Origin: an uncultured Elusimicrobia bacterium
GTDB lineage: Bacteria > Elusimicrobiota > Elusimicrobia > UBA1565 > UBA9628
DNA length: 64,000 nucleotides
NCBI GenBank assembly: GCA_903830945.1
Contig: CAIKVT010000081.1
Location: 62,001 to 126,000 of the forward strand
Reading direction: 5' to 3'
The position numbers were made by a program, and so were the translations under genes. Below are positions 32,998 to 45,948 of this stretch, in pieces. Below the pieces are notes generated by a model. That model had not been told where the DNA came from. It worked only from the letters and a program-made list of their open reading frames with translations, and searched no databases. Every line of letters starts with the position of its first letter. Position 1 is the stretch's first letter.

Positions 32998-34476
32998 CTA
33001 GGACATGGCGGCGAGGATTTGCTTCAAGGGAATCAGGGCGAATCCCGTGAGGCGGTCAGACATGCCGTAGGGCAGAACTAGTTGGCCGTCGTGCACGAGC
33101 GCGCCGCAGGTGTAGAGGACGTTGGGCACGTAGCCCTCCCGCTCAATGCCTTCCGGGCGCATCAACGGTTCGCGCAGGCGGCCGATCACTTTGGATGGGT
33201 CCTTCCGATCCAAAAGGAATGCGCCGAGGCAGTAGGTCCGCATGGGGCCTACGCCGTGGCTTAAGACAAGCCAACCAGCCTCCGTTTCAATGGGACAGCC
33301 GCAGTTCCCCGTCTTGATGAATTCCCAGGGATGGACGGGGGAGAGCAGTAGGCTGGCTTCGTTCCAAAAATGTACATTGTCGGAATACATTAGGAAGATG
33401 TTTTCTCCATCTTGCCGGGAGAGCATGGCAAAACACCCGTTGATCTTGCGTGGGAAGAGGGCCATCCCCTTGTTGCGCACGCCGGGGCCGTTGAGGGTGG
33501 CGAACTTGAAGTGCCGGAAGTCCTCCGTGGCGAACAACTGAGGGAGGACGTTGCGCCCGTCATAGGCGGTGTAGGTGGCGTAGTAAATTATCTTCCCCCT
33601 CTCGTCGCGATGCGCTGTCAAGCGCACGTCCTCCAGGCCGTTGCTCTGGATGGAGGTGACGGGGAAGATGATCCTTTCGGAAAGTTCTTGGTCCAGCGGA
33701 AACCGGATGTCGTAGTTGGACTGCGCCAAGAGCCAAAGGCCCTTGGCGGTATTGTGATCTCCGATCCTTTGGCCGGGCGCCGTTTCGTGCAGAACTCCTT
33801 TGAGCGCGCTCTTGAGATCCTTGATGGTGAAAAAATCCGCCAGCCGACCCAGCACGCGCTCTACCCAGGCCCCGCCCAAACCCATTTCCGCGACCTTCCG
33901 TCCGAAGAGCGCTTTGTGATAGGCCGAGTTTTCAATCAACTCGGGCTCGGTCAGGAATCTTGATGCCGGGTCCAGGGCGATGCCGTGGTGGGCGTCGATG
34001 ACGCCGCTGCGGAAGGAGATGGAGGAGATATGCCCTTCCCCCGTCGAGCGGAGACTCAAAAGGAAGCGCAGGCTCCCTTTGGGTAACTTCATCTGGTCTG
34101 GATGGGGCAGGATGGACGGATTGAAGAGCGCCGCGGATTCGGGCGAATATTCGAACATAAAGTAAGAGCCGATCAGGAATTTTCGCGCTTCCGAAACTTT
34201 GCGCCCCGCGGGCATGAGATGCTCCAGGTCGTGGAACCTTCTCACGAGGCGTTCGGTCAGCCAGCGGTGGCGGGAGGAGAACTCCGCCAAGACCTGCTCT
34301 AGAACGCGGTGGACGGTTTTCTCCGGAAGCGCCAGAACCCGCCGGAGGATCCTGAGGTATTCCTCGTCGGAAGCGAACCCCAGGCGCCGTAGGACCACCC
34401 GGGTTTGGTCGGGGGAGAGTCGGACCTCCGTGCGGCGGACGTTGATATTCCGGGCGGTGCCAGAGTGTCCTTTCAT
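32998..34476 (-). CDS. GH130 family phosphorylase/hydrolase
   Basis: 492 residues. The C-terminal 320 residues form a five-bladed beta-propeller with GH130 hallmarks: DVRLTAH, YYATYTAYDG, GVRNKGMALFPRKING and the GCPIETEAGWLVLSHGVG stretch that binds sugar and phosphate. GH130 enzymes act on beta-mannosides, most by phosphorolysis, releasing mannose 1-phosphate. The N-terminal 170 residues are helical and longer than in short members. Its start overlaps the stop of the GT4-glycosidase fusion (ATGA), so they act together, probably in making and remobilising a mannose-containing glucan or oligosaccharide. Confidence 0.85.
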   Translation of the reverse strand: MKGHSGTARNINVRRTEVRLSPDQTRVVLRRLGFASDEEYLRILRRVLALPEKTVHRVLEQVLAEFSSRHRWLTERLVRRFHDLEHLMPAGRKVSEARKFLIGSYFMFEYSPESAALFNPSILPHPDQMKLPKGSLRFLLSLRSTGEGHISSISFRSGVIDAHHGIALDPASRFLTEPELIENSAYHKALFGRKVAEMGLGGAWVERVLGRLADFFTIKDLKSALKGVLHETAPGQRIGDHNTAKGLWLLAQSNYDIRFPLDQELSERIIFPVTSIQSNGLEDVRLTAHRDERGKIIYYATYTAYDGRNVLPQLFATEDFRHFKFATLNGPGVRNKGMALFPRKINGCFAMLSRQDGENIFLMYSDNVHFWNEASLLLSPVHPWEFIKTGNCGCPIETEAGWLVLSHGVGPMRTYCLGAFLLDRKDPSKVIGRLREPLMRPEGIEREGYVPNVLYTCGALVHDGQLVLPYGMSDRLTGFALIPLKQILAAMS

Positions 34477-36764
34477 TTCGATGAGGGTACGATAGGGCTT
34501 TTGAAGGCGGCTATTTCATTGTGCACCTGCTGCATCTCCGCCAAAGAAATGAGGAACGCCAGGGTGGACTCGGCCCCCTGGTTTTGGTTCACGCGGTCCA
34601 TGTGCAGTCCGTCTCGGCATCCGCCGGTGTTGGCATCATAGAGAAACAGGCCCAAATCGTTGCGCCCCAAGAACCAATCGAAGGCGCGGCGCGCTTGGCT
34701 GAACCAATAATCGTCCGAGGTGCAGCGGTATGCCTCTAAGCAGGCGGACACCATGGCCTGTGCCTCGATGGGCTGTTGGTCGAAATGGGCGCGCTGCCCG
34801 CCGCGCTTGTAGAAGCCGTTGGATCCGACGGGGCGGGAATAGCCCCCTTCGGCGGTTTGGATCTTCGCCAGCCAGCGCAGGGTCGTCAGGCCTGTCTCCA
34901 GCACGTCAGGCCGGGCGGTCCACCGGCCGCTGAGAATCAGCGCGTGAGGCAGCTGAGCGTTCATATAGGTGACCGTATCCTCGAACCAGGGCCACTCGAG
35001 ACTGGCGGTGCGCTCGTAGAGCCCCATCAAGAGGTCCGTCAGGGCGACCCGCACTTGGCTCACCTGCCGGTCTCCGCTGAATCGGCGCAGGTACTCATGG
35101 GTGCCGGTCAAGGCCATGGCCCAGGCCCGGGGCGAACTGAATCCCGTGACCGGAGACAGCGCCTGGGCGAAGATTTGCCCGGCCAAAGTTTGAAAGCCCG
35201 GGTTTTTTGATCGGCCCACACAGGTCCCTAGGGCCCATAGAGCGCGACCGCAACAGTCCTCCGATATGGGCTCGTCCCTCCAGGACCGGTTGAACTCCAT
35301 GAGGTTGCGGAACCGGTTCTTCTTGGGGTCGAAGGCGTATTGCAGGAAGGCGGCGTAGATGGTGGCTGCGTTGAAAAGCTGGGGCGAGTCTTCCCCTAGT
35401 TCCTCCAGCAGCACCGTCAAGATCAGGGCCCGGGCGTTGTCGTCGGTGCAGTAACCGGTGGAGAAGTTCGGCACTGCCACGATGGCGTGTTGGAAGATCC
35501 CTGAGGAATCGGTCATGCGGTAGAGGTGGTCCAGCTTTAGGTCCGGAAGCTCGGTGAGCTGCTTGTCGAGGGTCTTCACCGTGAAAAGTTTCCGGGTCAG
35601 GCCGGCTCTCTGGCGTCGCGCGTTGGCAAAGGCTTGCATGTAGGAACAGGCCACATTTCCCCACACCATGTCCCGCCCAATTTTGTAAGCGTTCTTCCGC
35701 ATGGTGTTGCGGCGGGCATCGTCCGTCAACAGCCCCGCCACCGCCTGGGCGATGGCGTCCGGGTCGTTGAAGGGAACCAATACCCCACGGTCGTCCGCCA
35801 AAAGCTCCTGGGCATACCAATAGGGCGTCGACACCACGGCTTTGCCCGCGCCGAAGCAATAAGCCAAGGTTCCGGAGGTGATTTGTGCCTCGTTCAAATA
35901 AGGGGTGATGTAGATATCCGCGGCGCCGATAAACTCCTTCAGTTCAAGTATATCCACGAAGCGGTTGTAAAAGATCACATTTTTTTGGACGCCGTTCTTT
36001 TCGGCCAACAGTTCCAGTCTGAGGCGGTAGGACTCGCCTTGTTCTCGCAGGAGATTCGGATGAGTGGCCCCCAAGATGATGTAAATCACGTCGGGGTGAT
36101 TCGCCACGATTTTGGGCAAGGCGTTGAGCACGCTCTCGATTCCCTTATTGGGGGAGAGCAGGCCGAAGGTCAAGAGCACCTGCTTGCCCTCCACGCCGAA
36201 GAGGCCCTTGTAGCCGCTGGATTCCACGAAGGAAGTTTCTGGGATGCCGTGGGGGATCATGTCGATCTTGGCCGCGGGCGCCTGGTACACATCCTTCAGG
36301 AATCCCGCGCCTTTTTGCGACATCACCACCAGCCGGGTGGAGAGGTGAATCAGCTCCTGCATCACGCGTTTTTGATCGGCGTTGGGATCCTTGAGCACGG
36401 TGTGCAAAGTGGTCACGATGGGGATGTCCACCTCTCGCAGCAGGGCTAGGAGGTGCCCGCCTGCCGTCCCCCCGTAAATTCCGTACTCGTGTTGAACGCA
36501 AACCACGTCTACGTCGCTGATGCCCAGAAAATCAGCGGCCCGGCGGTAGGAGGCAAGGCTCTGTTCTTCGATCTCGAAACGGACTTCCGGCGGGTAGTCG
36601 TAGCCGCCCGCTATGTCATTGACGGGCACGGCAAAGCACCTCACCTTGGGAAACTGGGCCGCCACGGAGGTGCATAGGTCCGTAGTGAAGGTGGCGATTC
36701 CACAGAGCCTGGGCAGGTAGTCTCCCACGAAGGCGATGTTCCTGATTCCAGAGTGGGATTCCAT
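34473..36764 (-). CDS. GT4 glycosyltransferase fused to a glycosidase-like (alpha/alpha)6-barrel domain
   Basis: About 763 residues. Residues 1-400 are a GT-B glycosyltransferase of family GT4: FVGDYLPRLCGIATFTTDL, QHEYGIYGG, FGLLSPNKGIE and the donor-site motif NEAQITSGTLAYCFGAGKAV. Residues about 415-755 are a helical-barrel domain with TDDNARALIL, ALWALGTCVG and DGLHMDRVNQNQGAESTLAF, resembling a glycoside hydrolase/epimerase toroid. The start is placed at MESHSGIRNI, since the longer frame begins with TTG. The gene is coupled to GH130 by ATGA. A synthesis-plus-trimming enzyme is implied; substrate is unknown but mannosyl is favoured by the GH130 partner. Confidence 0.85.
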   Translation of the reverse strand: MESHSGIRNIAFVGDYLPRLCGIATFTTDLCTSVAAQFPKVRCFAVPVNDIAGGYDYPPEVRFEIEEQSLASYRRAADFLGISDVDVVCVQHEYGIYGGTAGGHLLALLREVDIPIVTTLHTVLKDPNADQKRVMQELIHLSTRLVVMSQKGAGFLKDVYQAPAAKIDMIPHGIPETSFVESSGYKGLFGVEGKQVLLTFGLLSPNKGIESVLNALPKIVANHPDVIYIILGATHPNLLREQGESYRLRLELLAEKNGVQKNVIFYNRFVDILELKEFIGAADIYITPYLNEAQITSGTLAYCFGAGKAVVSTPYWYAQELLADDRGVLVPFNDPDAIAQAVAGLLTDDARRNTMRKNAYKIGRDMVWGNVACSYMQAFANARRQRAGLTRKLFTVKTLDKQLTELPDLKLDHLYRMTDSSGIFQHAIVAVPNFSTGYCTDDNARALILTVLLEELGEDSPQLFNAATIYAAFLQYAFDPKKNRFRNLMEFNRSWRDEPISEDCCGRALWALGTCVGRSKNPGFQTLAGQIFAQALSPVTGFSSPRAWAMALTGTHEYLRRFSGDRQVSQVRVALTDLLMGLYERTASLEWPWFEDTVTYMNAQLPHALILSGRWTARPDVLETGLTTLRWLAKIQTAEGGYSRPVGSNGFYKRGGQRAHFDQQPIEAQAMVSACLEAYRCTSDDYWFSQARRAFDWFLGRNDLGLFLYDANTGGCRDGLHMDRVNQNQGAESTLAFLISLAEMQQVHNEIAAFKSPIVPSSK

Positions 36765-36889
36765 CATCCAGATGATGCCATATTGGATGGTCAAGCGTCA
36801 CTCGGGATATCGCCAGCATCCTTGAAGAGCAGCAGTCGGAGTGGATTCAAATCCGCCGCCCTGGAGAGCATCGCCAAGGCAATCTGATT

Positions 36890-36898
36890 TGCTAAAAT
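36890..36898 (+). promoter_or_regulatory. Extended -10 box before wecB
   Basis: TGC followed by TAAAAT. This box covers the first possible ATG (36897), which argues that translation starts at the next ATG (36912) from a leader of only a few bases. Confidence 0.4.
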
Positions 36899-36911
36899 GA
36901 CCGCGACCTCA

Positions 36912-38015
36912 ATGGCTCGCCCGAACATATTGGTCGTCATAGGCACCCGCCCCGAAGTCGTCAAGATGGCTCCGGTCGTCGCCGCATTGCGGCCCTCCCA
37001 GCGCTGGCGCGCCACGGTCGTCGGCACGGCGCAGCACCGCGGGCTCATGGATCAGATGCTCGAGACCTTTGGGCTCAAGCTCGATTATGACCTCGATCTC
37101 ATGCGTCGCGGCCAGACGCCCGCGCAGGTCCTCTCAAGGACCGTCGAGCGCCTGGCGCCGGTGCTGCGCAGAGAGAAGCCGGCGCTCGTGCTCGTCCAGG
37201 GCGACACCACGACCGCTCTCGGCGCGGCGCTTTGTTCGTTCTATCAGCGTGTGCCGGTCGGACACGTCGAGGCTGGGCTGCGCTCCTTCGACTTGATGCG
37301 GCCGTTTCCCGAGGAGGGCAACCGCGTCTTGATCGATCGCGTGGCCGACCTCATGTTCGCGCCGACGCGTGAGAGCCGCGCCAACCTGCTCGCGGAAGGC
37401 TTGCTCGCGCGCAAGATTTGCGTCACGGGGAACACCGTGGTCGATGCCGTCCAATGGTTGCTCAAGCGCAAGCCGGTCTGCCTGCCGGTGCCTCTTGAGC
37501 GGTTCCTGGCCTGCGCTGGCCCCAAGGCTATTATGACGATGCATCGGCGCGAGAGCTTCGGCGCGCCCGTGCGCGAGGTGTTTGCCGCGGTCAAGCAACT
37601 GCTGGGCGAGTATCCGCGGATGCGTTTGATCTATCCGGTTCACCCGAACCCGAACGTGCGCGGCCCGGTCGAGAAGTATCTGGCCCACCCGCGCATCCTG
37701 CTGACGCCGCCGATGAGCTATCCGGAGTTCATCCATATGGCTAAAGCCTGCGACCTGATCTTGAGCGACTCGGGCGGCGTACAAGAGGAGGCGCCGAGCC
37801 TGGGCGTGCCTGTCGTTATCCTGCGCGAGGTCACCGAGCGTCCCGAGGTGCTGCGCACGGGGCTGGCCGTCTTGGCCGGCACGGATCAGGCCAGAATTAT
37901 GCGCGCCGCGCGCCGCTTCCTTGCGCAAGGCCGGCGCCGCGCGGTCCGCAGCCCGTTCGGCGATGGCCACGCCGGCCGGCGCATCGTCAAGCGGATTCTG
38001 GATTTCCTTGGTTAG
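36912..38015 (+). CDS. wecB: UDP-N-acetylglucosamine 2-epimerase (non-hydrolysing)
   Basis: About 367 residues with the GT-B-like epimerase fold converting UDP-GlcNAc to UDP-ManNAc. Diagnostic motifs are GTRPEVVKMAPVV at the N-terminus, VQGDTTTALGAAL, GHVEAGLRSFD, PFPEEGNRVLID and SDSGGVQEEAPSLGVPVVILR. Length is normal. The start MARPNIL is preferred over an ATG five codons earlier because that one lies inside the -10 box. It is the first gene of a three-gene module with an exported deacetylase/hydrolase fusion and a processive GT2, so UDP-ManNAc or UDP-GlcNAc is the likely polymer precursor. Confidence 0.94.
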   Translation: MARPNILVVIGTRPEVVKMAPVVAALRPSQRWRATVVGTAQHRGLMDQMLETFGLKLDYDLDLMRRGQTPAQVLSRTVERLAPVLRREKPALVLVQGDTTTALGAALCSFYQRVPVGHVEAGLRSFDLMRPFPEEGNRVLIDRVADLMFAPTRESRANLLAEGLLARKICVTGNTVVDAVQWLLKRKPVCLPVPLERFLACAGPKAIMTMHRRESFGAPVREVFAAVKQLLGEYPRMRLIYPVHPNPNVRGPVEKYLAHPRILLTPPMSYPEFIHMAKACDLILSDSGGVQEEAPSLGVPVVILREVTERPEVLRTGLAVLAGTDQARIMRAARRFLAQGRRRAVRSPFGDGHAGRRIVKRILDFLG

Positions 38016-41000
38016 AACTTTTCTGCTGGCAGCGGCGATCGCGGCTCGTGCCGCCGGCGTGCCGGCGGCCGCGCCGCAACTGGCCGACGGGCCTTCCGTG
38101 CTCGTCATTTACGACGGGCCGGAGCAGGCGTCCAATCCCGCACGCATCGATGCGTTGTACGTGGGCAACCTGCTCGGTCATTTCACGACGAGGCGCACGC
38201 TGCGCACGCTCGAGCAATATCGTGAGGGCGACTGGAAGGGCTACGACGCCGTCTTCGGCATCGTCTACCGCAAGCACTACCGCGTGCCCGACGCGCTGCT
38301 GCGCGACGCGTCGCGCAGCGATCGCCCGTTCTGCTGGCTCGGCAACCAGCACGGACAGCTCGATCGCTACGGCGCGTTGCGCCGACATGGGGTGGCCTAT
38401 GAACGCTTCTTTGAGAACGCGCCTCTGAACCAGGTCGTCTATAAAGGCCGCACGCTTGACAAGGGCGATCCCGACACCAACGTCGTGCGCATCGTCGACG
38501 CGCGTCGAGCTCGCGTGTTGGCCTGGGCTACCGGTCGCACGCAGCTCCGGGTCCCCTACATCGTGCAGAGCGGACATTTCTGGCTCGTGGCCGACTCGCC
38601 GTTCTCCTATGCCAGCGAAAGCGACCGGTATCTGGCTTTTGCCGACGTCCTGCACGACATCTTGGGCATCGAGCATGCCGAAGACCATCGCGCGATCCTG
38701 CGCATCGAAGACATCAACGCTCTCTCCCGCCCCGCGCAACTCTCCGCGACCCTTGACGTGATCCGGCGCCATAAGATCCCGTTTGCCTTCGGCTTTGTGC
38801 CGACCTATGTCAATCCTACCGAGCGGTTGTATCTGCGCTTGGCCGACATGCCTAAAGTGCTTGCCCAGCTCCAGAGATACGTGCAGCAAGGCGGCGCGCC
38901 GATCCTGCACGGCTACACGCACCAGCGCCGCGGCGTCACGACTGATGACTACGAGTTCTGGGACGACTTTGCAGATCGCCCCGTGCGCGATGACTCCGAC
39001 GCGTTTGTGGCCCATCGCCTCGAACACGCGCTGCGCGAGTCCGCGCTGGCCGGCCTTTATCCGATCGCCTGGGAGACGCCGCATTACGCCGCCTCCGCGA
39101 TCGACTACCGCGTGATGCGGCGCTACTTCGATACGGTATTTGAGCGTCGCCTCGTCGTCAACTCGCTGGGTACCGACCAACTGTTCCCGTACCCGGTGGT
39201 CGATCTCTACGGGCAGTACGTGATCCCCGAGAACCTCTCGTACGTTCCGCAGGACAATCCGACGCCTGACGCCATACTCAAAGCGGCCAAGGCGGCCTGG
39301 GTCGTGCGCGACGGATACGCGAGCTTCTTCTACCATCCATTCCTCAAGCCCGAGCTTCTGGACGCCTTGATCGGAGGCATCGAGCAGCTCGGCTTCCGCT
39401 TTTTCGACGTGCGCCGCCTGCCCAACATGACGCACGGGGACGGCGAGATCGTCGCCACACGCGGGGGCACGGCCGAGATCTCCGGCACCGGCGGCTACCT
39501 GATCGAGCGCGTCGTCGGCGCCGATGGGGCGCCGATACGGCAGAAGTTCTCAAAAGTGATCGAGTCCGGCCCGATCCGTCGTGAGGTCGAACTCTCGCCG
39601 GGGCAGACTTACGTCGCGCTCAGGCAGGAGACGATGCCGCCCAGTTTGCTGAACCGACTCGTGAGGTTGGCAAAGGGAGACTTTACCGCGCTCCAGCGCC
39701 GTTGGGAATCGGTGCTGACTGGCCGTATCGCGCAAGAGCCGGTCCAGGCCGTGCTGCTCTGGAATCCCAAGGCTCGTGGCGAACAGGCCAAGGACCAGGA
39801 GAGCTTCCGCGCGACGCTTGACAGCGCCGGCTTTCCTGTCGAGAAACTCGAGTTGTCGCGGCTGGCGCAGGAAGCGGAGGACTTCGATCCGTTCACGCTG
39901 CTGGTCGTGCCGTCGGCCTCCGCCAAGGCGCTGTCGGAGAAGCAGACCGAGCGTATCGTGCGGACCGTTAAGGGCGGCATCACGCTGGTGACCGACGGCG
40001 AGAGTCCGCTGTCGCGCGCGCTCGGCGTGCGCTTGGGCGAGGCGTCCACGGTGAACTCCGTCACGAGCCGCGTGTTCGCCAACGAGGAAAACCGTTGGGC
40101 CGACCATCCGGTCGTGCCCTGGGTGGAACAGCCGGTGGTCGAGGACGACAGCGTCTATTACGCGGACCGTGATTTCGGCCATCCTCTGGTCATCGGCGGC
40201 CAGCTCGGCCAGGGCCGTTTCCTGTATTTCGCGCCGCTCTACGATCCTCTGACCGGGGGCGGCTACGGCCGTTTTCCGGGGCTGCCGTACTTGCTGATCA
40301 GTGAGTTCCATGTGCGCCCCATGCTCAAGCGCCGGGGCGCTGATGCGTATTTTGATCCGGGCTACCGCAACAACATCAGCATCGAGCGCCTGGTGCCGCT
40401 CTGGAGGCGCTCGGGCATCCGCGCGGTGCACGCCGCGGCCTGGCATTTCTATGACAAGTATAGCTATGACTATGCGCGGCTCATCCGCGTCGCGCACCAG
40501 AACGGCATCCTCGTGTACGCCTGGCTCGAATGGCCGCACATCAGCGACCACTTCTGGAACCGCCATCCTGAGTGGAGGGAGAAGACCGCGCGGCTGAGCG
40601 ACGCCCACGTGGGCTGGCGCTTTCTGATGAACCTTCAGAACCCGCAATGCTTAAAAGCGGCGTTGGACGACCTCAAGAGCTTTTTACTCGCTAACGACTG
40701 GGACGGCGTCGACGTGGCTGAGCTCACCTTCGAGTCGCAGGGCCCCGAGCATCCGGAATCGTTCACCCCGTTCTCCGCGCAGGCGCGCGCCGGATTTCAG
40801 AAACAGAGCGGCTTCGATCCTGTCGAGCTGTTCGACGTTTCCTCGCCGCACCATTGGGCCAAGGACGGCGCGGGACTTAAGGCTTTTTACGACTATCGCC
40901 GCGCCGAGAATCGGCGCCTGCTGGGCGCGGTCTTGGGCGCCGTCGACGAGGTGAGCCGCGGGCAGGGCCACCCTTGGGAGACGATCGTGACTTTGATTGA

Positions 41001-41973
41001 CGTCTTCAGCCATCCGGATCTGTCGGACGAGCTCGGCATCGACGGGCCCGGAACTATCGAGGCCGTCAACCGCCGCCAGGCCAAGCTCCAGGTCGAGGAT
41101 CCGGCCCGGGATTGGTCCAAGCCGCCAGAGCGCTACGCGGCGCTCGGCGAGCGCTACCGCGGCCTGCGCCTGAACCGGCCGTTCTTGATCGACATCAACG
41201 TCGTGCCCGTCCATCCCCCAGGACAGGTCGGCTTCGCGACGGCGCAGCAGACCGGCTCGGAACTCCTGCGCCTGTGGCAGGTGGCGGCCGGGCAGGCGTC
41301 GCGGGTCTGTCTCTACTCCGAGTCGAGCGTGGCCGAGCAGGACTGGGACATCCTGCCGTACGCGATGGCCGACAGGGCCGACGTGCGCAAGGACGGCTCG
41401 GCGTGGGTCATCAAGGCGCCGTATACGGTGATCCTTGAGCTTGATGACCGCACCTCCAAGCGCTGGCTCGACGGGAAACCTTGGCCTTGCTCTGATAAAG
41501 GTGATGCGGTGATTCCGTCCGGCGAGCATCGGTTGACGCTGGCTGGTTCCAAGCGCTCATGGTTCGACACCAGCGAGCTGGAGACGAGGCTGATCTCGAT
41601 CTCGGGAGAGCTCCTGGGCGCGCAACCGCACGGCCGTGGGCTTGAGCTGGAATACTCGTCGCCGGGCCGATGCGCGATGATGTTCAATAACCCATTCTCC
41701 AGGATCTTGATCGATGGGAAGCCGGCCCCTCTTCCCATGCTGCGCGGCGACAGCGGCTATGTCGTCATGGCGCCGCCCGGACAACATCGTTTGACCGGCA
41801 TCAGCGAGGCGACTTTCGGCTACGCCGTGCGTTTCGCGAGCCTGATCCTGGCTTCGCTGATCGTGCTGTTTGGGTTGGCCTCGAGCGGTCTGCTGGCCCT
41901 CTTGTTCGCGCTGACGGCGATCAAACGGCGCCTGCTGGCATTGCGCCGCTGGCTGCGCAAGGGGGGCGCGTGA
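38008..41973 (+). CDS. Giant exported DUF2334 deacetylase-like / glycoside-hydrolase-like fusion
   Basis: About 1,321 residues from TTG 38008, which gives a clean signal peptide (MVRTFLLAAAIAARAAG) and an 8-bp overlap with wecB; the longer frame inside wecB is unlikely. Residues about 30-480 are a DUF2334 polysaccharide-deacetylase-like domain with Asp235 in RIEDI, His301/His305 in HGYTH and Glu356/His359 in ETPHY. About 480-785 is a mixed domain, part resembling a glutamine-amidotransferase-like fold. About 785-1130 is a TIM-barrel hydrolase-like domain (start near RNNISIERL, acidic residues Asp902 and Glu905 in DVAEL). A C-terminal membrane span (about 1272-1300) anchors it. PgaB and PelA also combine a deacetylase and a hydrolase. 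The stop overlaps the next start (ATGA). Confidence 0.82.
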   Translation: MVRTFLLAAAIAARAAGVPAAAPQLADGPSVLVIYDGPEQASNPARIDALYVGNLLGHFTTRRTLRTLEQYREGDWKGYDAVFGIVYRKHYRVPDALLRDASRSDRPFCWLGNQHGQLDRYGALRRHGVAYERFFENAPLNQVVYKGRTLDKGDPDTNVVRIVDARRARVLAWATGRTQLRVPYIVQSGHFWLVADSPFSYASESDRYLAFADVLHDILGIEHAEDHRAILRIEDINALSRPAQLSATLDVIRRHKIPFAFGFVPTYVNPTERLYLRLADMPKVLAQLQRYVQQGGAPILHGYTHQRRGVTTDDYEFWDDFADRPVRDDSDAFVAHRLEHALRESALAGLYPIAWETPHYAASAIDYRVMRRYFDTVFERRLVVNSLGTDQLFPYPVVDLYGQYVIPENLSYVPQDNPTPDAILKAAKAAWVVRDGYASFFYHPFLKPELLDALIGGIEQLGFRFFDVRRLPNMTHGDGEIVATRGGTAEISGTGGYLIERVVGADGAPIRQKFSKVIESGPIRREVELSPGQTYVALRQETMPPSLLNRLVRLAKGDFTALQRRWESVLTGRIAQEPVQAVLLWNPKARGEQAKDQESFRATLDSAGFPVEKLELSRLAQEAEDFDPFTLLVVPSASAKALSEKQTERIVRTVKGGITLVTDGESPLSRALGVRLGEASTVNSVTSRVFANEENRWADHPVVPWVEQPVVEDDSVYYADRDFGHPLVIGGQLGQGRFLYFAPLYDPLTGGGYGRFPGLPYLLISEFHVRPMLKRRGADAYFDPGYRNNISIERLVPLWRRSGIRAVHAAAWHFYDKYSYDYARLIRVAHQNGILVYAWLEWPHISDHFWNRHPEWREKTARLSDAHVGWRFLMNLQNPQCLKAALDDLKSFLLANDWDGVDVAELTFESQGPEHPESFTPFSAQARAGFQKQSGFDPVELFDVSSPHHWAKDGAGLKAFYDYRRAENRRLLGAVLGAVDEVSRGQGHPWETIVTLIDVFSHPDLSDELGIDGPGTIEAVNRRQAKLQVEDPARDWSKPPERYAALGERYRGLRLNRPFLIDINVVPVHPPGQVGFATAQQTGSELLRLWQVAAGQASRVCLYSESSVAEQDWDILPYAMADRADVRKDGSAWVIKAPYTVILELDDRTSKRWLDGKPWPCSDKGDAVIPSGEHRLTLAGSKRSWFDTSELETRLISISGELLGAQPHGRGLELEYSSPGRCAMMFNNPFSRILIDGKPAPLPMLRGDSGYVVMAPPGQHRLTGISEATFGYAVRFASLILASLIVLFGLASSGLLALLFALTAIKRRLLALRRWLRKGGA

Positions 41974-43238
41974 TCGAGTACGGCGCGGGCCTCTTGGTCG
42001 AGCTGGTATTCCTGTCGACCGTGGCGCTGATCTGGATCATGCTCGTCTACCAGTTCGTGCTGACTATGGCAGGCTACCTTTACAGCCTCAGCGCCGCGCG
42101 CGAAAGGCGTCGGCTCGACGCCCTTCGCGCGGAACTGCCCGGCGTGTCCGTGCTGATCCCGGCGCATAATGAGGAACTCGTTATCGAGCGAACGGTCGAG
42201 ACGATCCTGGCGTCCGACTATCCAAAGGACAGGCTTGAGCTGATCGTGCTCGATGACGCCTCGACTGACGGCACCGCCTCGATCCTCGACAGGCTGGCCG
42301 ATCGTTACCCATGCCTGCGCGTTGTCCACGTGCCGGTCCATGAAGGTGGAAAAGGCAAGGCTGCCGTGCTCAACCGGGGATTGACGCTGGCGCGGCACTC
42401 CTTGATCGGTGTCTACGACGCCGACAATCTGCCGGAGCCCGCGGCCTTGCGTTATCTGGCGGCGCAATTCGATCTCGAGCCGCGCTTGGGTGCCGCGCTG
42501 GGTAAGTTCCGCACGATCAACCGTAAGAAGAACCTGCTCACCCGCTTCATCAATATTGAAGGACTGAGCTTTCAGTGGATCGTTCAGGCCGGCCGCTGGA
42601 AGCTGCTCAAGATCGCCACGCTGCCGGGCACAAACTTCATCGTGCGCAGGGACGTGCTCGACGAGGTCGGCGGCTGGGACGAAGAGGCTTTGACCGAGGA
42701 TGCCGAGCTGTCGCTGCGCATCCTGGAGGCGGGACACCTCATTAAGTTCGTGCCCTATTCGACGACTTGGGAGCAAGAGCCCGAGGACCTGCGCACGTGG
42801 TTTAAGCAGCGCACGCGCTGGGCGCGGGGGTCCTTCTATTTGATGCGTAAATTTTTCTTGAATGTAGGCAAGGCCAAGAATAAGGCGCTGGCTTTTGAGG
42901 TGTTCTACTTCTTGGCGCTCTATTACGTGTTCCTCGCCGCGATCGTCGTGTCGGCGCTCTTGTTCGCGCTCTCGGCGACCGGCTTAGTCTCGATCCCCGT
43001 GCCGGGTCCGTACCTCGAGGTCTGGCTTGCCGCCTACTGCCTGTTCGCCGCGGAGATCATGTTGATGCTCTCGCGCGAGCCGCATGAGGACTCGCCCTCG
43101 AATATGTTTTACTGCATGGCGATGTACTTTACTTATTGCCAGCTCTGGCCGCTGGTCGTGGCCAATGCCTTCTACCTCGAGTACATCAAGAAAGAGCGGC
43201 GCGTCTGGGTCAAGACGCGCCGCTACACGCAGTCTTAG
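41970..43238 (+). CDS. Processive family 2 glycosyltransferase (PgaC/BcsA-like synthase)
   Basis: 422 residues. One N-terminal span (about 8-35) precedes a cytosolic GT2 domain with VSVLIPAHNEE, LDDASTDGT, YDADN (DxD), GTNFIV, TEDAELS (catalytic Asp) and the processivity motif QRTRW. Three C-terminal spans lie near 310-340, 350-372 and 385-405. This is the layout of hyaluronan, chitin, PNAG and cellulose synthases, which couple polymerisation to export through the inner membrane. Context with wecB and the deacetylase/hydrolase fusion points to an amino-sugar polymer. No c-di-GMP PilZ domain or PgaD-like partner is visible nearby. Confidence 0.92.
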   Translation: MIEYGAGLLVELVFLSTVALIWIMLVYQFVLTMAGYLYSLSAARERRRLDALRAELPGVSVLIPAHNEELVIERTVETILASDYPKDRLELIVLDDASTDGTASILDRLADRYPCLRVVHVPVHEGGKGKAAVLNRGLTLARHSLIGVYDADNLPEPAALRYLAAQFDLEPRLGAALGKFRTINRKKNLLTRFINIEGLSFQWIVQAGRWKLLKIATLPGTNFIVRRDVLDEVGGWDEEALTEDAELSLRILEAGHLIKFVPYSTTWEQEPEDLRTWFKQRTRWARGSFYLMRKFFLNVGKAKNKALAFEVFYFLALYYVFLAAIVVSALLFALSATGLVSIPVPGPYLEVWLAAYCLFAAEIMLMLSREPHEDSPSNMFYCMAMYFTYCQLWPLVVANAFYLEYIKKERRVWVKTRRYTQS

Positions 43239-43479: not shown

Positions 43480-45948
43480 ATGAGTCGTCACGCTGCCCTG
43501 CTGCTGTTGCTGTCCCCCCCGTTCGTCTTCGGGGCGCTTTCTCCGGCGCTTGCCGAGACCGCCTATCAGAAGCCGCCGAGGGAAGTCCTCGATGTTCTCC
43601 ATGCGCCGGTCGCGCCGGACGCGAGCATTAGCCCGACGCGCGACGCGATGATCCTGGCGACGCCGGTGCGCTATCCCTCGATCTCCTATCTCGCGGAGCC
43701 GATGCTGCGGCTGGCGGGTGTGCGCATCATCCCGCGCACGCGGCGGCTGCAGAACGCAGGATACTGGAGCGCCTTGAGTCTCGTCGCGCTGCCCAGCGGC
43801 GCTGAGCGCCGCGTGAGCCTGCCTGCAGACGCCAGGGTCGGGATCCCTGCCTGGAGCGCGGACGGCAAGCGCTTTGCTTTCACCAATCTCGGCGCGGACT
43901 TCGTCGAATTATGGGTGGGAGACGCGGCCTCGGGGCAGGCCCACAGGATCGCGGGCGCGCGCCTCAATCCGTTCCTTGGTTGGCCGCTTTTGTGGATGCC
44001 GGACCAGAAGACGCTGCTCGTGCGCGCGGTGCCGGAGGGACTTGGCGCGCCTCCGGCGCAAGACGTTGCGCCGCTCGGCCCGTCTGTCCAGGAGGCCTCC
44101 GGCGAAAAAGGCGCCAGCAGCACCTACGAGGTGCGCGACGTCCTTAAGAGCCCGAAGGATGAGGAGCTTTTCGACTACTATGCGGCTACGCAGCTTTTGC
44201 TCGTGGACGCCGAAAGCGGTCGCATCACGCCTTTGGGCAAGCCTGCCTTATATGCGGACCTCTCGCCTGCGCCGGACGGGCGCCACCTGCTCGTCGTGAC
44301 GATTCAGCGGCCGTTTTCTTATCTTACCACGCACGAGCGCTTCCCTCGAGAAGTCGATGTCTGGGACAGTTTAGGACGCGTGGAGCGCCATGTGGCCTCC
44401 ATTGCGCTGGCCGACCGCGTGCCGATCTGGGGAGTGAGGACCGGGCCGCGCGATTTCCACTGGCGGCCGACCGAGCCCGCGACGCTCGCTTGGACCGAGG
44501 CGCTCGACGACGGAGACTGGAAGGTGCAAGTCCCCCATCGCGACCGTGTCATGATGCTCGAGGCGCCGTTTGCGGGGGCTCCGGCCGAAGTCCTTCAGGT
44601 GCGAGACCGCGTCGAGAGCATCCGATGGGGAGAGCGCCGCGACTTGGCGCTGGTCACTAGCGTGGACATGATCAAGCGCTGGACCCAGACGCGCGTGGCG
44701 GATTTCGGTCACCCCCAGGCGAGCACCCGCCTCATCTGGGACATGTCGAGTGACGAGGCCTACCATCACCCGGGCTATCCGGTCATGAAGACTCTGCCCA
44801 ACGGCATGAGGGCGGTGCTTCAGGATAAAAATTCGATCTATCTTGATGGCGAGGGCGCTTCGCCTGAGGGTGACCGGCCCTTCTTGGACCGGTTGGACCT
44901 GAAAACGCTCAAGACCGAACGACTCTTCCGCTGCGACCGTTCGTCCTACGAGCAGTTCTACACCTGGCTCGATCTTAAGGCCGGGGCCTTCCTCACCCAG
45001 CGTGAGAGCCCTCAGGATCCGCCGAACTTCTTCGTGCGGACTTTTTTGGGCCGCGTCAAGGCGCCGGCGGGCGAAGCGGTTCGCACGAGCACGCTTCAGG
45101 CCATCACGCACCTGTCGGATCCGACGCCGCAGCTGCGTGCGATCACCAAGCGCCTCGTCACGTACAAACGCGCCGACGGCGTCAATCTGTCATTTACGCT
45201 CTATCTGCCCCCAGGATACCGGGAGGGCACGCGCTTGCCCGCGATCGTGTGGGCCTACCCGCTCGACTACTCGGATCCGAAAATGGCGGGGCAAGTGACG
45301 GGCTCGACGCAGACCTTTACGAGGATCGGCTGGCCGCTGCATCTATTCCCGCTCCTGGCGGGCTATGCGGTCATCGACAATCCGCTTATGCCCGTGGTGG
45401 GTGATGCCAACCGCATCTACGACACTTACATGGAGCAGCTGGTGGCTGGCGCGAAAGCCGCGGTCGACAAGGCGGTGGAGCTCGGCGTGGTGGACCGCGA
45501 CCGCATCGGGATCACGGGGCACAGCCACGGCGGCCTGATGACGGTGAACCTGCTTGCGCACTCGGACCTATTCCGCGCGGGCGTGGCGCGAAGCGGGGCT
45601 TACAACCGGTCGCTGACGGCGTTTGGATTCCAGAACGAGCGGCGCACGCTCTGGGAAGCGCCGGAGATCTACACGAAGGTCTCGCCGTTTTTTCATGCGG
45701 AGAAGATCAAGTCGCCGCTTTTGCTCATCCACGGCGAGCTGGACGCGAATCCAGGTACGGTGCCCCTGCAATCGCAGCAGCTCTTCGAGGCGATCCGCGG
45801 CAATGGAGGCACGGCGCGTCTGGTCATGCTGCCATTCGAGTCACACGGCTATCGCGCCATGGAGTCCACCGAGCACGTGCTTTATGAGATGCTCGCCTGG
45901 TTCGATAAGTACGTCAAGAACGCATCGCCGCGGGTCGAGGTCCGCTGA
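43480..45948 (+). CDS. Secreted S9-family prolyl oligopeptidase-like serine peptidase
   Basis: 822 residues with a signal peptide (about 1-25). An N-terminal beta-propeller-like region (about 60-560) leads into an alpha/beta-hydrolase domain with Ser682 in GHSHGG, Asp755 in GELDANPG and His789 in ESHGY, a complete catalytic triad in S9 order and spacing. It most resembles the dipeptidyl-peptidase/acylaminoacyl-peptidase (S9B/C) branch and probably cleaves peptides in the periplasm. It lies after the polysaccharide module but has its own promoter, so a functional link is not implied. Confidence 0.92.
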   Translation: MSRHAALLLLLSPPFVFGALSPALAETAYQKPPREVLDVLHAPVAPDASISPTRDAMILATPVRYPSISYLAEPMLRLAGVRIIPRTRRLQNAGYWSALSLVALPSGAERRVSLPADARVGIPAWSADGKRFAFTNLGADFVELWVGDAASGQAHRIAGARLNPFLGWPLLWMPDQKTLLVRAVPEGLGAPPAQDVAPLGPSVQEASGEKGASSTYEVRDVLKSPKDEELFDYYAATQLLLVDAESGRITPLGKPALYADLSPAPDGRHLLVVTIQRPFSYLTTHERFPREVDVWDSLGRVERHVASIALADRVPIWGVRTGPRDFHWRPTEPATLAWTEALDDGDWKVQVPHRDRVMMLEAPFAGAPAEVLQVRDRVESIRWGERRDLALVTSVDMIKRWTQTRVADFGHPQASTRLIWDMSSDEAYHHPGYPVMKTLPNGMRAVLQDKNSIYLDGEGASPEGDRPFLDRLDLKTLKTERLFRCDRSSYEQFYTWLDLKAGAFLTQRESPQDPPNFFVRTFLGRVKAPAGEAVRTSTLQAITHLSDPTPQLRAITKRLVTYKRADGVNLSFTLYLPPGYREGTRLPAIVWAYPLDYSDPKMAGQVTGSTQTFTRIGWPLHLFPLLAGYAVIDNPLMPVVGDANRIYDTYMEQLVAGAKAAVDKAVELGVVDRDRIGITGHSHGGLMTVNLLAHSDLFRAGVARSGAYNRSLTAFGFQNERRTLWEAPEIYTKVSPFFHAEKIKSPLLLIHGELDANPGTVPLQSQQLFEAIRGNGGTARLVMLPFESHGYRAMESTEHVLYEMLAWFDKYVKNASPRVEVR

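Follow-up and report, generated by a model that had tools for sequence, protein, structure and literature searches.

The chemistry of ManNAc exopolysaccharides is known from Listeria, where the Pss exopolysaccharide is induced by c-di-GMP; for the E. coli NGR polymer (N4 glycan receptor, NfrBA-YbcH) this composition has been deduced from genetics. The enzymes that modify such polymers are poorly understood. The Listeria polymer is reported to be composed of beta-1,4-ManNAc with alpha-1,6-galactose (PMC6307706). For NfrB and WecB it was reported that wecB is linked to the synthase gene where no other wecB exists (PMC8669469). In the literature that we searched, DUF2334 is hardly ever named and we found nothing on exopolysaccharides of Elusimicrobia.

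We analysed a stretch of 64,000 nucleotides from an uncultured Elusimicrobia bacterium (the window), which carries a three-gene cassette of wecB, a deacetylase-hydrolase fusion and a GT2 synthase. Within 6.3 kb it is predicted to bring together a precursor enzyme, a synthase and both modifying activities. As in Listeria Pss, whose synthase falls in the same branch of the tree, the GT2 gene comes immediately after a DUF2334 gene, the DUF2334 protein carries a membrane helix at its C-terminus and a ManNAc precursor is implied. However, only here does the deacetylase have an intact HxxxH site and share one polypeptide with a second GATase-like domain and a hydrolase of GH153 fold; wecB lies in the operon, and PssA, the BcsB-like PssD and the GGDEF protein PssE are missing. 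The host is also expected to be diderm, as Elusimicrobiota and Aminicenantota are taken to be.

The resemblance to the Pga system lies in an exported protein with predicted deacetylase and hydrolase activities in the same order as in PgaB, and in a GT2 of the same broad group. Unlike PgaB, the fusion has a DUF2334 domain instead of the PgaB sub-family of CE4, two extra GATase-like domains, a C-terminal anchor and twice the length; the cassette lacks PgaA and PgaD, its GT2 scores far under the PgaC cut-off, and wecB is added. With the E. coli NGR system it has in common a GT2 that would depend on WecB, a proposed ManNAc polymer and the linkage of wecB where the genome has no other copy, but NfrB is distant, the NfrA outer-membrane channel is not seen at our locus and an MshEN c-di-GMP domain is lacking.

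Gene content and layout of the cassette

The first gene, wecB (36912-38015, + strand), encodes a non-hydrolysing UDP-GlcNAc 2-epimerase expected to supply UDP-ManNAc. Its product reaches 401.5 bits against TIGR00236, where the equivalog cut-off is 210.15, and 331 bits against Epimerase_2. The fusion gene (38008-41973, + strand) overlaps wecB by 8 bp, has a TTG start and encodes a 1,321 aa protein predicted to be a secreted, membrane-anchored deacetylase-hydrolase. The GT2 gene (41970-43238, + strand) has a GTG start overlapping the TGA stop of the fusion gene (4 bp) and encodes a processive, PssC-like synthase with N- and C-terminal membrane segments. The first-pass annotation had described this coupling by 8 and 4 bp and had taken wecB for a UDP-HexNAc precursor gene; the ORF coordinates bear out the former and the TIGR00236 score the latter.

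A leader with the extended -10-like sequence TGCTAAAAT (36887-36911, + strand) forms the first conserved bases of the cassette in a four-genome alignment. In all four of these close cassettes TGCTAAAAT is found, with single-base changes, about 14 nt 5′ of the conserved wecB ATG, and this short distance suggests that the wecB transcript may be near-leaderless. A promoter-like match was found at 36871-36898, but the count of such matches is no higher than chance.

Domain structure of the fusion protein

The only Pfam family matched by the fusion is DUF2334 (PF10096, residues 228-455), with 138 bits against a gathering cut-off of 26. The N-terminus carries a signal-like stretch. Using a nine-sequence alignment, we obtained AlphaFold models of residues 26-545 (mean pLDDT 84) and 560-1275 (mean pLDDT 79). 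The first model opens with a Rossmann/GATase-like domain (residues 28-223; 38089-38676, + strand; pLDDT 84), which resembles the middle domain of GH42 (Z 14.4) and the N-terminal part of Agd3. The predicted CE4-type deacetylase domain follows (DUF2334, about residues 224-481; 38677-39450, + strand), recognised by PF10096, the fold and the invariant columns, and its modelled fold matches CE4 polysaccharide deacetylases with Z of 15-17.6. Residues E234-D235, H301, H305, W355-Y360, R434-D435 and H443 are invariant, and in the predicted CE4 fold E234-D235, H301 and H305 likely correspond to the Asp/His/His metal site.

Taken together, the two domains of the N-half matched Agd3 with Z 13.8 over 383 residues (rmsd 7.1), and human NDST1 was their top Foldseek match. 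Agd3 (CE18) and the N-deacetylase of NDST1 both have a Rossmann-like domain before the deacetylase, as in the model of the fusion, but their substrates are different and sequence searches with the fusion found neither.

The hydrolase half starts with a second GATase-like domain (residues 581-741; 39748-40230, + strand), recognised in the model and from weak DUF4350, GH42M and DUF7408 matches in homologues. It continues with a predicted TIM-barrel hydrolase domain (residues 775-1129; 40330-41394, + strand; pLDDT 79), a C-terminal beta-sandwich region seen in the secondary structure of the model (residues 1132-1265; 41401-41802, + strand) and a transmembrane anchor predicted from hydropathy (residues 1268-1306; 41809-41925, + strand), after which comes a basic tail. 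The five best solved matches of the modelled barrel are PgaB C-terminal (GH153) domains (Z 24.4-23.8, the best with rmsd 3.8 over 313 residues), followed by GH42 (22.7), and the cell-wall hydrolase Cwp19 matched with Z 21.9. Carboxylates D783, E841, E905, D998, D1031, D1062 and E1105 are invariant and are found where most strands of the barrel end. E905 (WDGVDVAEL) was set by eye, without a computed residue alignment, against D466 (FDGILFHDD) of E. coli PgaB, which we take to be the counterpart of D474 in Bordetella PgaB. The Bordetella residue has been named the probable catalytic acid (PMC5933820).

Profile searches gave no GH153 or GHL13 match to the fusion, phmmer and hmmsearch against PDB returned weak alpha-galactosidase matches only, and hhalign of the C-half with E. 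coli PgaB was meaningless (E 0.44). As sequence methods do not find GH153, we do not file the fusion in this family. The exported, anchored fusion of DUF2334 and TIM-barrel domains proposed in the first-pass annotation agrees with the PF10096 match, the predicted barrel, the signal-like stretch and the C-terminal hydrophobic segment. Modelling of the two active sites, which had been put forward as a check, placed their likely residues at positions invariant in all aligned homologues.

Standalone N-halves and C-halves of the fusion exist away from a GT2. C-half homologues without the deacetylase half were seen at L025:2287-4512, L066 and L067.

The GT2 synthase and its relatives

The motifs D150xD152, T242E243D244 and Q280RTRW284 are invariant in nine homologues of the synthase, as expected for the processive GT2 with DxD, TED and QRTRW that had been recognised at first reading. 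Its best NCBIfam match is PgaC_IcaA (TIGR03937), but the score of 176 bits falls short of the equivalog cut-off of 422 and the protein was not accepted as a PNAG synthase. By tblastn of plasmid records we found a GT2 of Listeria monocytogenes to which it is 45.6 % identical over 410 aa, versus 27 % to E. coli PgaC. The Listeria gene stands in a row of five (membrane protein-DUF2334-GT2-BcsB-GGDEF) matching the gene content of the published pssA-E set (PMC4125290), and we equated the record with pss by gene content and order. Judged by sequence, PssC is the closest relative of known chemistry of the cassette GT2. In the tree, the cassette GT2s group with PssC and with one synthase of Enterococcus and two of Acinetobacter; E. 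coli PgaC (91/93) and NfrB (100/100) are separated from them. NfrB, on the other side of the 100/100 branch, matched the cassette GT2 with a BLAST E of only 0.16. To our knowledge, donor-sugar specificity cannot be read from the sequence of a GT2.

Both Acinetobacter loci (L085:4350-11941 and L087:4231-10976) contain a PssC-like GT2 with wecB within about 4 kb; one has a BcsB-annotated gene and the other a weak DUF4434 match. These operons likely represent a Gram-negative Pss-type system.

The DUF2334 protein of the Listeria row (presumed PssB, L083:4470-5966) scored 23.3 bits in Pfam, just under the cut-off, and 9.7 bits against the N-half of the fusion, and it is without the HxxxH motif. Because of this low score and the missing motif, the cassette and Listeria deacetylases are not close orthologues. 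The presumed PssB is called a deacetylase in papers, but its catalytic site looks degenerate, as HxxxH is missing.

On a Comamonadaceae and a Streptomyces plasmid, further DUF2334 homologues (31-33 % identity) are encoded in the vicinity of wecB and a GT2 gene. The Comamonadaceae operon (L071:8800-17746) is of the Nfr type with the order wecB-NfrB-small protein-DUF2334-NfrA-DUF4434, where the NfrA-like protein is a TPR porin and the DUF4434 gene is YbcH-like. The Streptomyces plasmid carries wecB-GT2 and, divergently, DUF2334-GH113. From these gene sets it looks as if one job may be done by hydrolases of different barrel families (the fused GH153-fold domain, DUF4434 or GH113).

Conservation and lateral transfer

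Full-length homologues of the fusion occur in Elusimicrobiota (88-89 % identity in three genomes, and 55 %, 37 % and 36 %) and in Aminicenantota (33-38 %). The distribution is patchy: counting partial matches, the fusion was matched in 12 of the 341 genomes from the home phylum and in 16 of 297 sampled Aminicenantota. The records found by name were all MAGs of Elusimicrobia and Candidatus Aminicenantes. In both phyla, wherever the contig of a full-length homologue extends far enough, the gene after the fusion is GT2, and this order is conserved far beyond chance. The complete order wecB-fusion-GT2 is present in four Elusimicrobiota genomes (the window and three others) and in at least four Aminicenantota genomes, and wecB adjoins fusion-GT2 in most loci of adequate length. 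The search for the gene order in relatives, suggested with the initial reading, thus recovered fusion-GT2 throughout and wecB mostly beside it.

The seven genomes with a cassette-linked wecB contain no other true wecB, and three genomes with an unlinked fusion-GT2 pair have wecB elsewhere (483-490 bits). A second match to the wecB profile in the genome of the window (237 bits) falls in a distant clade. All bootstrap trees of wecB require three changes for the linked genes, and wecB was thus probably recruited to the cassette more than once; a single origin is possible.

Some short DUF2334 genes of other Elusimicrobiota (L014:2404-7438 and L016:2620-7102) are preceded by a glmS-like gene and one for a nucleotide-sugar dehydrogenase, a different amino-sugar context.

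We compared the divergence of the fusion with that of rpoB. The fusion of G036, which belongs to another family, is 89 % identical to that of the window and has diverged by 0.25 at four-fold sites, versus 73 % and 1.22 for rpoB; for G017, of another genus, the values are 88 % and 0.41 versus 83 % and 0.86. In the four-genome alignment, nucleotide similarity spans 36868/36886 to 43237/43238 of the window, which is the operon with its -10-like leader; it is lost upstream of the leader and stops at the stop codon of GT2. A synonymous divergence well below that of rpoB, together with homology that breaks off exactly at both ends of the operon, indicates that the cassette has been transferred between genera and families as one exact unit. 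Vertical descent alone was rejected for the window and G036 on the four-fold divergence of 1.22 in rpoB against 0.25 in the fusion. Mis-binning of G036 was also rejected, its contig having a yihA of its own that is 67 % identical, as expected for another family. No insertion signatures were found at the cassette flanks, where repeats did not exceed chance-like short matches. The window and G036 both have yihA ahead of wecB, and this pair may therefore share an insertion region or have recombined locally.

Search for exit and c-di-GMP components

The lack of a porin, PgaD and a c-di-GMP domain, already remarked on in the first-pass annotation, holds at the locus and extends for the PgaA barrel to the whole genome. 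No porin or PgaD gene is found within or beside the operon, and PgaA_barrel (PF21197) has no match in the genome of the window, while the E. coli control was positive. BcsB (PF03170, the PssD type) was found in none of the 10 cassette genomes, with positive controls. Poly_export is present in just four of the 10 cassette-bearing genomes, and a Wza-type exporter is therefore not a consistent partner. There is no PssE-type c-di-GMP receptor in the three-gene operon and the next gene is an S9 peptidase. PilZ proteins are common elsewhere in the genome, unlinked to the cassette.

Interpretation of the cassette

We consider the cassette to be a condensed, synthase-dependent module for an exopolysaccharide of the Pss type; its product is most likely a ManNAc polymer that is deacetylated in part. 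We put the probability of this reading at about 70 %. ManNAc is the probable monomer to judge from the kinship of GT2 with PssC, from wecB being linked where no other true copy exists, and from the DUF2334 homologues near wecB and GT2. WecB would convert UDP-GlcNAc to UDP-ManNAc, and the PssC-like GT2 would polymerise ManNAc at the inner membrane and thread the chain out. The fusion, bearing a signal, would be held at the inner membrane by its C-terminal helix. There its DUF2334 domain would partly de-N-acetylate the chain and its GH153-fold domain would cut it, as PgaB does with PNAG. Both activities on a ManNAc polymer, and the topology, are predictions from the models and from analogy with PgaB. 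Several observations stand against the Pss-type reading: the BcsB-like PssD is part of the Listeria operon yet was not seen in any of the cassette genomes, the operon is without a c-di-GMP receptor and the genome without a PgaA-type porin, the GH153 likeness is one of fold alone, and the Listeria DUF2334 protein is only distantly like the N-half of the fusion. The module stands as a synthase-dependent amino-sugar polymer system in which deacetylase and hydrolase are paired as in PgaB, but, given the PssC kin and the Nfr-type operon of Comamonadaceae, not as the undescribed system that the first-pass annotation had suspected.

A divergent PNAG system of the Pga/Ica type, in which GT2 would make beta-1,6-GlcNAc, the fusion would act as PgaB and wecB would serve another pathway, appears unlikely. 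PgaC_IcaA is the best NCBIfam match of GT2 and PgaB has the nearest fold to the barrel, but 176 bits are far below 422, GT2 is much closer to PssC than to PgaC in identity, the PgaA barrel is absent from the genome and PgaD from the operon, and the repeated linkage of wecB is left unaccounted for. The original comparison with PNAG and Pel is disfavoured as chemistry. We regard as equally improbable as the PNAG system a mixed polymer, for example of ManNAc with GlcNAc or uronic acid, for which the same machinery would use sugars supplied by genes outside the cassette. The galactose on the Listeria polymer would fit it, as would the short DUF2334 genes behind glmS-like and nucleotide-sugar dehydrogenase genes in some Elusimicrobiota, but the cassette has just one GT2 and one precursor enzyme.

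That the fusion is a peptidoglycan or scavenging enzyme merely travelling with wecB and GT2 is very improbable. Cwp19 is among the fold matches of the barrel (Z 21.9) and both halves occur alone away from GT2; however, fusion and GT2 are adjacent in every judgeable full-length case in two phyla, their genes overlap start to stop, and they have been transferred together. Within the Pss-type reading, a bolder version is that the cassette is a distinct, laterally spread ManNAc system suited to diderms. Such a system would do without a BcsB-like periplasmic partner and without a dedicated TPR porin, as the anchored multidomain enzyme would process the chain at the inner membrane and pass on a short, partly deacetylated product. 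We hold this version only tentatively and think it rather doubtful.

The same components with exchanged parts are found in Elusimicrobiota, Aminicenantota, Betaproteobacteria and Actinomycetota, and the cassette opens the substrate of DUF2334 to a direct test in a laboratory host.

Neighbouring genes

The cassette is adjoined by a divergent two-gene unit (32998-36794, - strand) with a 4 bp overlap, encoding a GT4 glycosyltransferase, much extended at its C-terminus, and a GH130-like mannoside phosphorylase; no such unit is present in the fetched flanks of other cassettes. Downstream of the cassette, 43480-45948 encodes a protein of the prolyl-oligopeptidase (S9) family, whose best NCBIfam match is a partial one to lasso-peptide isopeptidase with 77.6 bits, far under the cut-off.
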